Virus record (IMG/VR): IMGVR_UViG_3300033146_002265
Span: 1 to 21,175 of that record
Strand: one strand, 5' to 3'
DNA: 21,175 nt
From: a virus
Shown here: piece after piece, positions 4,045 through 20,783 of the stretch
Position numbering within the stretch: position 1 is the stretch's first letter
Layout of the letters: each line of letters starts with the position of its first letter
Translations under genes and position numbers: made by a program
Notes under the pieces: generated by a model
Seen by the model: only the letters and a program-made list of their open reading frames with translations
What the model was told of the DNA's origin: nothing
Databases searched by the model: none

Positions 4045-4079
4045 AAAAAAGCAGGATTCTTCGGGATCCTGCTTTTTTT
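4045..4079 (+). terminator. Rho-independent terminator after gp23
   Basis: A 9-bp stem (GCAGGATTC at 4051-4059, GGATCCTGC at 4064-4072, with one T-G pair) closes a TTCG tetraloop and is followed by seven T. A-rich sequence upstream can lengthen the stem. It ends the head-gene transcript 23 bases after the gp23 stop. Confidence 0.95.
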
Positions 4080-11944: not shown

Positions 11945-11972
11945 TTGACGAGAGATGAATCCGGTATATAAT
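11945..11972 (+). promoter_or_regulatory. Sigma70-type promoter for gp41 helicase (TTGACG-16-TATAAT)
   Basis: The -35 TTGACG (11945-11950) and perfect -10 TATAAT (11967-11972), 16 bases apart, lie in the 76-base gap after uvsX. Transcription would begin about 20 bases before the TTG start of the helicase gene. Confidence 0.8.
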
Positions 11973-11998
11973 TAACTAATAAACGAACGGAGAATTCA

Positions 11999-13393
11999 TT
12001 GGAATCGATAAGTATTTTTAATGGGCTGTTAACTCAGCCCTCTTTTTATAGATCTGTTATAGCGCACCTTGACGATGACTTGTTCGATGGCGCTGAAAAG
12101 ATAGTGTTTAATAAGATTAAAAGCTATTCTACAGAATATAATAAACAAGCTTCAGCTGCGGATCTACAGTTGCTCCTGAAAAATGACATGGATCTTACTG
12201 AAGGTGAGACTCAAGAAGCTCTTGAGCTAGTAAATATAGCGAAAAATTTAGAGCAGATCGACGAAGATCTTCTCTTTAATGAGACAGAAAAGTTCGCCCA
12301 AGATAGATCTTTTGAGAATGTACTAAAACAAGCAGTCGATACGGTAGTTAACGAAAAAGATGCGTCAGCTACCAAAGGTCTCTTACCTGAGTTATTTCGT
12401 AACGCTTTATCAATATCATTCACAACCACTCTTGGTCATGATTATTTTAGAGATGCGCCTGATCGATATGAATATTACACAAGCGAAGAAGAAATAATTA
12501 AGATAGATGTTGAAGCTCTAAATAAAATGCTAAACGGTGGCTTTCGTCGAAAGACCATTTCTGTTTATCTTGGTAGAACTAACATCGGTAAAACACTATT
12601 TCTATGTCATCATGCGACGGCATTAATGGAATTAGGTTATAATGTACTTTACGTTTCTGGGGAAATGGATGAAAATCTAATTGCTCAGCGTGTTGATGCT
12701 AATATTCTAAATATGAGCATGGACGATTTTAATACTGAACTTGAGAAAAAACCATATCTAAGTAAAATTAGAGATATCTATGGTAAAGTTCAAGGCAGAT
12801 TAAAAATTAAAGAGTACTCTGCCGGCGCTTGTAATGCTCTTCACCTGAAAAATCTTCTTCAAGAATATAAACTGAAAGACGATTTTGTCCCAGATGTTGT
12901 TATCTTAGATTATATCAATTTATTTAGTTCATTCCGTTTGCCAGCTGCAGCGATGAGTAATTCATATCTTTATGTGAAAAGCGTAGCTGAGGAAATGAGA
13001 GGGTTAGCTAGGGAATTTAATTTCGCATGTATCTCAGCAACACAAACAAATAGGTCCGGGGCTGATGCTGGGGATTCTACTGACATGAGCGATACTGCTG
13101 ATTCTTACGGTTTACCAATGACTGTTGATGGTCTTTATGCTATCATTCAGAACGAAGAACTATTTAAACTCAACAAGTATTTAACCAAAGTACTAAAATC
13201 TAGATTCGGCGATAACATTAACGAAATTTATACTCTTGGTGTTGAGCGCAGTCACATGAGACTGAAAGACGTAGAAGAATCTGAACAAGAACTCCCGCAA
13301 CACATTAAAGACCAATTAGAATATCAAGCGCAAAAAGATAAAAAGAAGAAAGATATGGAAGCAATCGAAGACATCGGAATATCATTTGACTAA
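11999..13393 (+). CDS. 41: Replicative DNA helicase, DnaB-like (gp41)
   Basis: The hexameric 5'-3' helicase of the phage fork, partner of the gp61 primase. The 464-residue product (T4: 475) has an N-terminal helical domain (1-135) and a RecA-like motor: Walker A GRTNIGKTL (192-200), the segment VLYVSGEMDE (216-225), Walker B VVILDYINL (300-308), and SATQTNRSG at about 346-354. The C-terminus is acidic/lysine-rich. The start is an unusual TTG, supported by GGAG 6 bases upstream and by the absence of an in-frame ATG near it. A promoter lies just upstream; no gp59 loader gene is seen nearby. Confidence 0.95.
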   Translation: MESISIFNGLLTQPSFYRSVIAHLDDDLFDGAEKIVFNKIKSYSTEYNKQASAADLQLLLKNDMDLTEGETQEALELVNIAKNLEQIDEDLLFNETEKFAQDRSFENVLKQAVDTVVNEKDASATKGLLPELFRNALSISFTTTLGHDYFRDAPDRYEYYTSEEEIIKIDVEALNKMLNGGFRRKTISVYLGRTNIGKTLFLCHHATALMELGYNVLYVSGEMDENLIAQRVDANILNMSMDDFNTELEKKPYLSKIRDIYGKVQGRLKIKEYSAGACNALHLKNLLQEYKLKDDFVPDVVILDYINLFSSFRLPAAAMSNSYLYVKSVAEEMRGLAREFNFACISATQTNRSGADAGDSTDMSDTADSYGLPMTVDGLYAIIQNEELFKLNKYLTKVLKSRFGDNINEIYTLGVERSHMRLKDVEESEQELPQHIKDQLEYQAQKDKKKKDMEAIEDIGISFD

Positions 13394-16893: not shown

Positions 16894-17468
16894 GAACTTT
16901 TAAAGAAATTAATGAAATGAAAAAATTCTTTGAGATCAGAACCAACCTCCATATTGAAAGAGTCCAAAAATACGCTAATATGCTAGCGGACAAATTTCCG
17001 GAGATTAGATATCTTAGAAAAGTCGTGGAAACACACGACCAATCTAAATTTATGGACCCAGAATACGTTCCCTATCTTTATATCACTTGGAATTATAAGT
17101 GTAAAAAAGAGGGTGTTAAATTTGACATCCCAGAAGAAATAAAAGATAGAATGCATGAAGCAACCACTCACCACGTTTTAAGCAATAAACACCACCCAGA
17201 ATTCTGGTCAGTCGATAAGACAGACGTGATCAATAAAAATCTTGAAGATCGAGATAAACCTGCCAAAGAAATTTTCGCTTTAAATATGCCCGAAGTTTAT
17301 TTAGCTGAGATGGTCGCTGATTGGTCATCAATGTCAGAAGAACATGGCGAAAAGGCTGGACCATATAAATGGGCGCAAGAAAATATCAATATTCGCTGGA
17401 AATTTAGCAAAACTCAAACGGAACAGATCTATAAATTTATAGATTTTTTATGGAAGGATGTAAAATGA
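16890..17468 (+). CDS. HD/DUF5662-like protein
   Basis: A 192-residue protein that resembles the DUF5662 family, an HD-domain-like group common in phages. Visible features are His21 (HIERVQKY), His49-Asp50 (THDQSKF), the His-rich TTHHVLSNKHHPEFW (92-106) and MPEVYLAEMVADWSSMSEEHG (133-153) with Asp144, giving the H...HD...D order of metal-dependent phosphohydrolases. A nucleotide-hydrolysing role would fit its place before the ribonucleotide reductase, but this is inference. The start overlaps the previous stop (ATGA). Confidence 0.82.
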   Translation: MRTFKEINEMKKFFEIRTNLHIERVQKYANMLADKFPEIRYLRKVVETHDQSKFMDPEYVPYLYITWNYKCKKEGVKFDIPEEIKDRMHEATTHHVLSNKHHPEFWSVDKTDVINKNLEDRDKPAKEIFALNMPEVYLAEMVADWSSMSEEHGEKAGPYKWAQENINIRWKFSKTQTEQIYKFIDFLWKDVK

Positions 17469-20110
17469 ACAAAAACGGTTTTTTCGTTAATGATTTTCAA
17501 GAAATGGTCTGGAATGAGAATTATCAAGATCAGGTTGAAACTATTGAGGGCACGAATAAGCGACTCTCTAATACTATCTATGAAGAGGATGCACAAAGTG
17601 TTCAACTAGCAGCGTATTTATCTATGATGAATAGACGTTTGTTCTTCGGGGGTCGAGTTACCGCTAATACAGGAACATTCGTAAAAAACGTTCACTCCTT
17701 TAATTGTTATGCTGCTCAAAGAGCTGTGAAACCGGTAGATTCTATAAAAAATATTTTTACCGACGTGCTCAACGCCGCTGAAATTCTTAAAACTGAGGGA
17801 GGAATCGGATTTAACTTTAATCATATTCGCCCAAAAGGGACATTAATTAAAGGTGTCGGTGTCGGTACACCGGGCGTCGTAGCCTTCATGGAGATCTACG
17901 ATAAGTCAGCTGAAATCATTACACGAGGAACCTCAGAAGATGTAATTCAGAGAGCGAATGCGCCGATTAAAAAGAAAATCCGTAAGGGTGCTCAAATGTC
18001 TATGCTTTCTATTAGACACCCAGAGTCGATGGATTATATCAAAGCAAAGTCAATCCCTGGTATCCTCACCAAATTCAACATGTCAGTTATTATCACTGAT
18101 GCTTTTATGCTCGCCTTAGAAAAAGGTGAGTTCTGGGATTTTTGGTTTCCAGATATTCACTTCAGTAAATATGATGAAGAATGGAATGGCGACTTCGAAG
18201 AATGGGAAGAAAAAGGTTATCCGAAAGTAGTTTATGATACTATGCCAGCTCAAGAGATCTGGGATATCTTAATCGATAACATGTATCGTAGAAATGAACC
18301 AGGGTTATATTTCATTGATAACGCTAACAGATTTAATAATCTTATTCATTACCAAAAAATCACAGGCACCAACCCTTGTGGTGAAATTTCAATGCTCGCA
18401 GACGGTGGTGTCTTTGAGAAAAATGGTATCGTCTATGAATATCTAGGTGACATCTGTAATCTTGGAAGTTTAAACCTCTGTGAATATGTTAACACACTTC
18501 TTTACGCCAACAGAACAGCTCCAATGCCAGACTGGTGTAATGGTGATTTTAAAGAGTTCGATTGGAAAATGTTTGCTGCTGATATCGCTCTGCTTGTGCG
18601 GGGTCTAGATAATCTTATTGATATCTCAGGTTATCCTTTTAAGAAATTGGAGACTGCTGCTAAACTTCGCAGAAAAATCGGTGCTGGAATTTTTGGTTAT
18701 GGTTCAGCATTAATGATGATGGGTATGCGTTATGGCTCAAAAGAAGCTAACGCGTTTACTGAAAAACTCATGTCTCTTTTTGCTAACGTGGCTTATCAAA
18801 CTTCAGCACAATTAGCTCGGGAAAAAGGCCCGTTCATTCTCTATGACGAGAACGTTATAAATCAAGGCTTCATTAAAAATTCTGGCATTCTTTATCCAGA
18901 AACTATTGAGATGATTAGACAAAACGGTCTTAGAAATTCTCAATTATTAACTGTAGCACCAACTGGAAATCTTTCTATTTATGCTGGTTGTATTTCTGGT
19001 GGAATTGAACCTGTCTACGAATTAGACTATTTCCGCTGGGTTATTTCCAACCATAAAACTAAAGCGATACTTAAAACTTTAGCATATCCTGCTTGGGACA
19101 CCGGTGAATGGTTTGAAACTGATGATTTTAAATTCCAAATGCGTGGTGATGACCAAGTCTTAGTTTCCAAATGTGGACACTTCATGATTGATCAGAATCG
19201 TGGTCTCACAGAGAAAATTCAAGTTTATGACTACGCTTATCAAGTTATCGTGGACGAATATTCTGAAGAGGTTTATCACGACTTCGAGAAACGTGGAGTA
19301 TTCGCCACCGCCATGGATTTATCAGCCAATGACCATTTAGATCCATTTATCATTCTTGGTAAACACGTAGATAATTCTATCAGTAAAACTATTAATCTGC
19401 CGAATGATTATCCTAAAGAAGATCTGGATTCACTTTATAAGAAATTATGGAGAGAAGGGGGAAGAGGTGTCACGACGTATCGCGAAGGTACAATGATGGC
19501 AGTTCTTGAGACGAAAAAAGAGTCTGAAAAAGCAAAGAAATCTCTCAAACGAGAACAACGTGATTTCTTCGAAGAATGGAAAGAACATGAAAAAGGAACT
19601 GTAGTTCCACATCAGGTCGATCTACCTTCTACATATCCAATGCTTGGACATAAAATCACTTCTGAGGGTAAAAAATGGTATGTGTCTCTAGCATTTAAAG
19701 ACAAGAAAATGGAACGACCATTTGCTATTTTCGTTTCAACCAATCACAGAGAGTCTGAAGTTGTTGCTTACGGCACAATGGAAGCATTAACTGAGTTGGC
19801 TGAAAATGAAGGTATCTCTTTAGAAATGATCGAGGACAACGATAAAAAATGTTCAGGTCAAAACAACGTTAATAAGATCGCCCGAACAATTAGTCTTTTG
19901 CTTAGACATAATGTTAAGATTGAACTAATCGTGAAAGTATTGGATCAGCTAGATATTCCAATTTCTTCGTTGGTGACAAGGTTGAAGAAACTTCTCATGA
20001 AGTATATTTTTGAAATGGAGAACGGGAAAAAATGCCCAATCTGTGATGAGAAGATGATCTTTATCGAAGGATGCGTTAAATGTTCTGGCTGTGATTATTC
20101 AGAATGTTAA
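17465..20110 (+). CDS. nrdJ: Class II (adenosylcobalamin-dependent) ribonucleoside reductase
   Basis: Reduces ribonucleotides to deoxyribonucleotides using vitamin B12 coenzyme, without a small subunit or oxygen. Starting at 17465 the protein is 881 aa. Key residues: Cys81 (FNCYA), the NPCGE radical-cysteine loop (303-307), Cys331 (DICNLGSLNL), PTGNLSIYAG (499-508), a TSCPD-like segment near ITSEGKKWYVSLAF, and a Cys-rich tail with six Cys (857, 860, 870, 873, 876, 881) typical of NrdJ for active-site re-reduction. GGAAGGA lies 6 bases before ATG 17465, whereas the in-frame ATG at 17450 has no ribosome site. T4 itself uses class I and III enzymes. Confidence 0.95.
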   Translation: MNKNGFFVNDFQEMVWNENYQDQVETIEGTNKRLSNTIYEEDAQSVQLAAYLSMMNRRLFFGGRVTANTGTFVKNVHSFNCYAAQRAVKPVDSIKNIFTDVLNAAEILKTEGGIGFNFNHIRPKGTLIKGVGVGTPGVVAFMEIYDKSAEIITRGTSEDVIQRANAPIKKKIRKGAQMSMLSIRHPESMDYIKAKSIPGILTKFNMSVIITDAFMLALEKGEFWDFWFPDIHFSKYDEEWNGDFEEWEEKGYPKVVYDTMPAQEIWDILIDNMYRRNEPGLYFIDNANRFNNLIHYQKITGTNPCGEISMLADGGVFEKNGIVYEYLGDICNLGSLNLCEYVNTLLYANRTAPMPDWCNGDFKEFDWKMFAADIALLVRGLDNLIDISGYPFKKLETAAKLRRKIGAGIFGYGSALMMMGMRYGSKEANAFTEKLMSLFANVAYQTSAQLAREKGPFILYDENVINQGFIKNSGILYPETIEMIRQNGLRNSQLLTVAPTGNLSIYAGCISGGIEPVYELDYFRWVISNHKTKAILKTLAYPAWDTGEWFETDDFKFQMRGDDQVLVSKCGHFMIDQNRGLTEKIQVYDYAYQVIVDEYSEEVYHDFEKRGVFATAMDLSANDHLDPFIILGKHVDNSISKTINLPNDYPKEDLDSLYKKLWREGGRGVTTYREGTMMAVLETKKESEKAKKSLKREQRDFFEEWKEHEKGTVVPHQVDLPSTYPMLGHKITSEGKKWYVSLAFKDKKMERPFAIFVSTNHRESEVVAYGTMEALTELAENEGISLEMIEDNDKKCSGQNNVNKIARTISLLLRHNVKIELIVKVLDQLDIPISSLVTRLKKLLMKYIFEMENGKKCPICDEKMIFIEGCVKCSGCDYSEC

Positions 20111-20122
20111 AGGAGAGTGAAA

Positions 20123-20341
20123 ATGGGTTTTATAGATGATGAACGAAAAGAAGGATTCGTTTCTAGTTTTATAGTAAGAACATTCATTTGTCCAATCTGC
20201 GAAGTAGATCTTGAAAATAAAAGAATGTTTATCCTTCATATGTACGCGCAACATCCGAAAGAATATCGGAACATGAATTTTGACAAGCTAGACGAGCTAG
20301 AAGATTTTAAAGCAGGAAAATCCGATGTTTTAAACTTATAA
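20123..20341 (+). CDS. Small C2H2 zinc-finger-like protein
   Basis: A 72-residue protein with a C-x2-C-x12-H-x4-H finger (C23, C26, H39, H44: FICPIC ... ILHMYAQH), a pattern that can bind DNA or protein. I chose ATG 20123 because AAGGAG ends 7 bases before it; the in-frame GTG at 20117 would have only one base of spacing. Specific function unknown. It follows NrdJ closely. Confidence 0.75.
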   Translation: MGFIDDERKEGFVSSFIVRTFICPICEVDLENKRMFILHMYAQHPKEYRNMNFDKLDELEDFKAGKSDVLNL

Positions 20342-20355
20342 TTCCCTTTTTATCC

Positions 20356-20384
20356 TTTACTTCTCCTTTGATTTTTGATAGAAT
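20356..20384 (+). promoter_or_regulatory. Sigma70-like promoter inside the hairpin (TTTACT-17-TAGAAT)
   Basis: The -35 TTTACT (20356-20361) and -10 TAGAAT (20379-20384) are 17 bases apart. Transcription would begin near 20391, after the 5' arm of the hairpin, leaving the ribosome site unpaired. The hexamers are weaker matches than the other promoters here. Confidence 0.55.
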
Positions 20385-20410
20385 AACATATCAATTAATC
20401 AAAGGAGAAG
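20360..20410 (+). promoter_or_regulatory. Long hairpin sequestering a ribosome binding site
   Basis: A perfect 14-bp inverted repeat (20360-20373 with 20397-20410) encloses a second 6-bp stem TTGATA/TATCAA (20375-20380 with 20389-20394) and an 8-base loop. The 3' arm contains the whole AAAGGAG of the gene at 20415. No T tract follows, so it is not a normal terminator. T4 uses such hairpins to block translation of early read-through RNA for genes such as e and soc. Confidence 0.85.
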
Positions 20411-20414
20411 ATTT

Positions 20415-20783
20415 ATGGAATTTAGAACTTGGGACCAATTAACTGAAGAGGAACAACTGTTAACCGAGATTTCTGATGTCTACAAGGACATCCACGGTTT
20501 TCGCCCCCGTTCTGTTCTTAACGGAAAATCTGTTGAAGATCTCCGTTCCTTTCTCGCCGATCTTCACACTGAAGCTGAGGCTACTTTCATTCGCAATAAG
20601 CAAGCTCAGCTCAGCAACGTGGCTGATTTCGAGGAATTGATAAAATCCACTCGGGCTATTTGTTCTTGCGACCGCTCATCTGCTGTCCGTTTTCTGATGG
20701 ACGCCGAAGAAGATCCGGACGTGGAATATATTGAATTCGTCTACAACCTCCCTTACGGATATCTCATGAACGAGGCTGCATAA
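20415..20783 (+). CDS. Hypothetical phage protein (TWDQLTEEEQL... family)
   Basis: A 122-residue acidic protein. The N-terminus TWDQLTEEEQLLTEIS, followed by YKDIHGFRPR (23-32), is a pattern seen in uncharacterised proteins of many phages; no function is known to me. Codons are more C-rich than in most genes here. AAGGAG at 20402-20407 is well placed but buried in the upstream hairpin. The stop overlaps the next ATG (TAATG). Confidence 0.8.
   Translation: MEFRTWDQLTEEEQLLTEISDVYKDIHGFRPRSVLNGKSVEDLRSFLADLHTEAEATFIRNKQAQLSNVADFEELIKSTRAICSCDRSSAVRFLMDAEEDPDVEYIEFVYNLPYGYLMNEAA

Follow-up and report, generated by a model that had tools for sequence, protein, structure and literature searches.

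Leaders that hide the ribosome binding site have been described for T4 genes e, soc and 49, for I-TevI, I-TevII, I-TevIII and segB, and for Aeh1 mobE (PMC3014915, PMC2988022). In read-through RNA the Shine-Dalgarno (SD) sequence of such a gene is held in a stem, whereas RNA whose promoter lies within the 5' half of the hairpin lacks that half and is translated; the T4 cases are all late genes with late promoters (PMC3014915, PMC2988022). The DNA studied here, a 21 kb virus record (21,175 nucleotides; the whole stretch is called the window below), comes from an uncultured phage of the T4 superfamily, and has the T4-superfamily genes for a major capsid protein, a UvsW-like helicase, a gp55-like late sigma factor, UvsX and a ribonucleotide reductase. 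A preliminary description of the window had likened the start of the gene at 20415 to the leaders of e, soc and 49 with their late promoters, an account of T4 that agrees with the reviews (PMC3014915, PMC2988022). Judged from the predicted fold and the inferred start position, the locus has the same SD-hiding stem and the same promoter placement as the T4 leaders; it differs from them in its sigma70-like promoter and its unrelated gene, whereas the T4 cases use late TATAAATA promoters. The late (gp55, TATAAATA) promoter that belongs to T4-type sequestration was not found at 20415, and the sigma70-promoter version is a new variant beside T4's late-promoter cases.

A fold-back is also known from the transposons IS10 and IS50, in which transcripts entering from the flanking DNA fold over the start of the transposase gene, unlike those made from the internal sigma70 promoter. 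The passages of the transposon literature that we searched do not describe it. Unlike IS10 and IS50, the window has neither transposon ends nor a transposase; the site is a phage operon boundary and the gene is a phrog_21968 member.

A hairpin spanning a promoter and an SD sequence

The outer arms of the hairpin (Table 1) are a perfect inverted repeat of 14 bp, 23 nt apart, and the inner stem encloses a loop at 20381-20388. The hairpin alone folds at -25.2 kcal/mol; a 101-nt segment containing it reaches -32.8 kcal/mol, compared with -15.7 +/- 2.95 for its shuffles (z -5.8; 0/200). A perfect 14-bp pair with a spacer of at most 40 occurs once in the real window and in none of 40 simulated windows, and the arms are found nowhere else in the record. 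The hairpin at 20360-20410 is real and far beyond chance, and the fold, shuffle and simulation tests confirm the 14-bp repeat and inner 6-bp stem of the preliminary description. That description had also buried AAAGGAG in the 3' arm, which is correct; if its wording is taken to mean the inner stem, this part fails, the motif sitting in the outer arm. The 3' arm at 20397-20410 runs on into ATTTATGG, with no U-tract directly after the stem. Between the stop codon at 20341 and the 20360 hairpin no terminator-like hairpin was found, and an Rfam scan of the window gave zero matches at gathering thresholds.

Table 1. Features of the nrdJ-phrog_21968 junction, and other promoter-spanning hairpins in the window and in kin phages
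Feature	Location	Strand	Remarks
nrdJ-like ribonucleotide reductase large subunit	17450..20110	+	phrog_84, E 1.4e-110; PF02867
C2H2-like zinc-finger ORF, 72 aa	20123..20341	+	Pfam zinc-finger matches below cut-off
-35 element TTTACT	20356..20361	+	overlaps foot of hairpin 5' arm
Hairpin 5' arm (anti-SD)	20360..20373	+	CTTCTCCTTTGATT; almost wholly within promoter spacer
Inner 6-bp stem, 5' arm	20375..20380	+	TTGATA
Extended -10, TG-A-TAGAAT	20376..20384	+	top of hairpin; position agrees with family promoters
Inner 6-bp stem, 3' arm	20389..20394	+	TATCAA
Hairpin 3' arm	20397..20410	+	AATCAAAGGAGAAG
Shine-Dalgarno AAAGGAG	20401..20407	+	inside outer 14-bp 3' arm
phrog_21968 ORF, 122 aa	20415..20783	+	E 6.5e-18; function unknown
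Second, weaker candidate	11945..11999	+	uvsX/gp41-like junction; TTGACG-16-TATAAT; spacer pairs with SD region
dsbA leaders of large phages	L180, L208, L216-L295		SD-hiding hairpin, embedded sigma70-like promoter
410-aa gene, kin genome G004	L098 -11959		SD-hiding form
SprT-like gene	L108 +15542		SD-hiding form
DnaJ gene	L125 +11177		SD-hiding form
phiM12 SmphiM12_025	L008 -7297		SD-hiding form
uvsX-junction hairpins	L091 +10460, L092 +11169, L094 +565, L090 +8778		promoter in terminator
DNA polymerase gene, G004	L098 -7083		promoter in terminator; TTGACA-16-TATAAT in loop, GC-containing hairpin, T run after
Ahead of a G016 gene			promoter in terminator

The TAGAAT hexamer (20379-20384) has a TG at 20376-20377 and a spacer of 17 from TTTACT. 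Taken alone, the sigma70-like promoter at 20356-20384 is weak and unremarkable: it scores 9/12, a score reached by 31% of shuffled upstream regions. Its -10 lies 3' of the end of the arm at 20373, so that locally started RNA, with a start predicted near 20390-20391, would be without the 5' arm. The preliminary description had placed a promoter across the 5' arm with this very consequence, and had called it sigma70-like rather than late; both statements hold. The best match to TATAAATA, the gp55 late motif, is 5/8 at the -10 and 6/8 nearby, exact TATAAATA sites preceding late genes elsewhere in the window, and by its motifs the promoter of ORF 20415 is not late-type. The exact sites, at 130, 1754, 4122, 4283 and 10199, lie in or near intergenic gaps and are likely T4-type late promoters.

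In equilibrium predictions the probability that the SD is unpaired is about 0.0007-0.001 in read-through RNA, at every context length tried, and 0.72-0.79 in RNA starting at 20386-20395 (about 0.75 near 20390), values that could be affected by folding during transcription or by ribosomes that terminate at 20341 (19 nt 5' of the arm). The predicted switch holds across the context lengths and start positions tried, and among the gene starts examined in the window the SD of ORF 20415 has the lowest accessibility.

It is probable, in our judgement, that the hairpin acts in cis as RNA, as a translational insulator at the boundary of the nrdJ unit and the next accessory unit. A sigma70-like promoter would be nested in the inverted repeat, its spacer serving as the 5' arm and the 3' arm holding the SD of the next gene. 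Read-through RNA from upstream would contain both arms, its leader would fold, and ribosomes would not load on ORF 20415; RNA from the internal promoter would begin 3' of the 5' arm and would be translatable. ORF 20415 would thus depend on its own promoter for all expression, which would probably be early, and would be silent while later or upstream transcription crosses it. The use of the promoter, the passage of upstream transcripts across the junction, the silencing of their translation and the timing are the steps that we infer here.

The junction in the window and in its relatives

The immediate upstream neighbour of the hairpin is the 72-aa zinc-finger-like ORF, which nrdJ precedes; this ORF is the last gene of the nrdJ unit, and nrdJ is the presumed source of the read-through RNA. 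The phrog_21968 gene has a higher GC content (0.42-0.47) than its surroundings. Other repeats were seen in the window. An AT-rich palindrome with TATAAATT and a T-run (17422-17449) adjoins the nrdJ start and could be a weak late promoter or a terminator; a perfect inverted repeat of 13 bp at 4045-4078, 3' of the major capsid gene, has runs of A and T and is likely a bidirectional terminator; and a 15-bp tandem repeat (364-414) encodes an acidic repeat, DDELN, close to the C-terminal end of ORF 166-510.

The search for phrog_21968 relatives found 380 in viral contigs, of which 80 were fetched (L010-L089); there were more in rhizobial phages. A promoter of at least 10/12 was present in 49 of the 63 distinct relatives examined, and in 46 of these 49 the -10 ended 27-35 nt before the start codon (30 nt in the window). 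Because these 46 share their distance to the start codon, the position of the predicted promoter is a trait of the phrog_21968 family. Most of its members have a sigma70 promoter of their own, close to consensus and some 30 nt ahead of the start. In the Atu_ph07 sequence (L006), some 45 nt 5' of position 1971, the -10 of the phrog_21968 promoter is exactly enclosed by a 13-nt inverted repeat that leaves the SD outside and may be an operator.

The orthologous hairpin is lacking in most relatives and is no family trait. Its exact arm pattern was not found in the viral contigs searched, a phage blastn search for it gave no matches, and neither nrdJ nor the 72-aa gene led to usable relatives in viral contigs. 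Conservation of the hairpin at the gene at 20415 is therefore not supported, most relatives being without it; of the two-arm covariation proposed as a check in the preliminary description, we found examples at other genes of the same design, and the phrog_21968 site has no orthologous hairpin.

Close kin were identified through UvsX (L090-L094, 80-89% identity). One close relative, L096, has kept nrdJ and the orthologous zinc-finger gene, again 3' of nrdJ; the latter is followed by an intrinsic terminator, then by TTGACT-17-TATAAT and an unrelated gene. Since terminator, promoter and unrelated gene stand there, the nrdJ junction appears to be a unit boundary with exchangeable downstream genes. 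The same junction would be insulated by a terminator in L096 and by an SD-hiding hairpin in the window.

Promoter-spanning hairpins in kin phages

The scan for recurrence covered 2.6 Mb of kin phage DNA and 2665 gene starts, with thresholds chosen in the course of the work. Perfect stems of at least 11 bp that bury the SD numbered 11, two cases of which count both strands of one palindrome, and there were none with shuffled upstream sequence. Among 394 sigma70-like starts, spacer-leader pairing at or below -16 kcal/mol that included the SD was seen 15 times (3.6 expected), and stems spanning sigma70-like promoters with a score of at least 11 were found in 11 cases in the window's clade (1.0 expected). 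The equilibrium long/short accessibility switch, over all sigma70-type starts in the kin, showed a modest excess, 22 vs 13.3; because this excess is small, the long/short SD switch is a minority device among kin phages. More was learned from the duplex and swap tests than from this comparison. A strict CTCCT-TATAAT-AGGAG pattern had 0 matches in 30 kin records, and was too strict, because the register varies among real cases. A dyad at every sigma70 promoter was not seen in phiM12 or Atu_ph07. The stems of L186 (15-bp), L133 and L100 -14900 were set aside as terminator-like or ambiguous.

Promoter-spanning hairpins occur in the kin in two forms, one hiding the SD and one with the promoter in a terminator, that is, with a U-tract after the stem (Table 1). 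We found no relevant literature match for promoter-in-terminator loops in phages, coverage being incomplete and absence unproven. The classic T4 arrangement also appears in kin genome G004 (L196 -3856), at endonuclease VII (T4 gene 49; PF02945, E 5e-16): an 11-bp stem there takes in the SD, its loop contains TATAAATA, and the site serves as a positive control. The gene-49 arrangement is conserved in this distant clade. The same clade appears to use both promoter types, late and sigma70-like.

The SD-hiding gene of L180 (87 aa) is DsbA, a T4-type DNA-binding protein, and its orthologue in the PA5oct group, which in PA5oct itself is EST35_0310, has the same design with different arms. Our dsbA set consisted of 70 distinct leaders with a sigma70-like promoter, from jumbo and T4-like phages. 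A leader's pairing with its own spacer averaged -6.99, against -5.73 with permuted partners (z -5.8, which overstates independence, as the orthologues share descent); 11 leaders lay at or below -12 kcal/mol, compared with 1.6 expected. For the swapped average and the expected counts, pairs with 85% identity or more were excluded; the permutation retained them. The dsbA spacer and leader coevolve, hiding the SD as in the window, and the arms vary between orthologues yet remain complementary. Several leaders read TTGAC(T/A)TCTCCT...TATAAT...AGGAGA, near the window's TTTACTTCTCC...TAGAAT...GGAGAAG: the layout that they share with the window is a -35 element, TTGAC(T/A) in dsbA, followed immediately by the anti-SD, then the -10, TATAAT in dsbA, and the SD in the 3' arm. 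Unlike the window, they stand before another gene, that of the DsbA DNA-binding protein, and about one fifth of the orthologues pair strongly.

The uvsX-type hairpins were compared in a set of four from the kin only, three directly 3' of uvsX and that of L090 about 0.8 kb downstream. Their promoter hexamers are kept and their arms change, 94% of cells being paired, with changes on both sides at 10 of 16 pairs. The covariation score is 0.74, against 0.42 for shuffles (0/500) and at most 0.31 for slid structures. The arms contain G-U pairs, which favours RNA over a DNA operator. These hairpins of close kin resemble that of the window in the sigma70-like promoter inside, the 5' arm formed by the spacer and the place at a unit boundary; they differ from it in the U-tract after the stem, so that insulation would come from termination and not from hiding of the SD. 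In the window's clade the best-supported covarying hairpins are of the terminator kind and not of the SD-hiding kind, which counts against the insulator reading. At the weaker candidate of the window (11945-11999), where related phages have promoter-in-terminator hairpins after uvsX, the SD is unpaired with a probability of 0.22 in long and 0.84 in short RNA, and the duplex has -12.5 kcal/mol (p 0.12).

Alternative readings and wider meaning

The computed support for a translational insulator consists of the inverted repeat with its predicted fold, the accessibility switch, the promoter position shared by the family, and recurrence with covariation at other genes. Against it stand the 9/12 score of the window promoter and the phrog_21968 relatives without an orthologous hairpin, which leaves the exact site without covariation of its own. 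The interpretation of the preliminary description is borne out in the fold, the buried SD, the promoter placement and the T4 analogy, and not in conservation at the gene at 20415.

Instead of RNA, the functional element could be a DNA operator, a dyad centred on the -10 that would bind a dimeric repressor or activator, the RNA fold being a by-product. The dyad axis does lie at about 20385, at the 3' end of the -10, and the rhizobial phages Atu_ph07, Phosso and phiM12 have a shorter dyad around the -10, with the SD outside (p 0.003, 0.043 and 0.053). However, 14-bp perfect half-sites exceed the usual operator length, and dyads at the -10 were no commoner than chance in 46 phrog_21968 family members; with 2/46 below p 0.05, a conserved operator at this position across the family was rejected. 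The kin hairpins tolerate G-U, their arms change completely and their 3' arm follows the SD or the U-tract, which points to RNA, and we consider an operator unlikely. The hairpin might also be an intrinsic terminator of the nrdJ unit, degenerate and with the promoter in its loop, whose main role is to stop transcription. This would fit the promoter-in-terminator hairpins that relatives have at uvsX and ahead of both DNA polymerase and the G016 gene, as well as the plain terminator at the nrdJ junction of a relative; but the window hairpin, which lacks a U-tract and runs into ATTTATGG, was not among the terminator-like sites found, and this explanation seems to us quite improbable. There is a very small chance, finally, that the hairpin is a functionless accident or a mutational quasi-palindrome: perfect arms can arise by template switching and the hairpin at phrog_21968 is unique to the window sequence, yet it coincides, at a unit boundary, with an SD and with a promoter of conserved position, and at other loci the arrangement is found again, with coevolving arms.

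By its recurrence, the design looks like a reusable insulator that related phages also use elsewhere. A more general proposal, to which we give even chances, is that T4-superfamily and jumbo phages have a modular insulator of operon boundaries, in which the spacer of a sigma70 promoter is one arm and the other arm hides an SD or ends in a U-tract. The gene behind it would be deaf to upstream transcription and would fire from a promoter of its own; at equivalent junctions one form would replace the other. The known T4 examples all hold back late genes on early RNA. The sigma70 version would act in the opposite way, limiting a gene to an early promoter of its own and silencing it on read-through RNA made later. 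The recurrence of this design and the coevolving arms of the dsbA leaders and uvsX junctions suggest a compact insulator, which would let accessory genes be exchanged at the ends of operons without coming under the control of adjacent genes.
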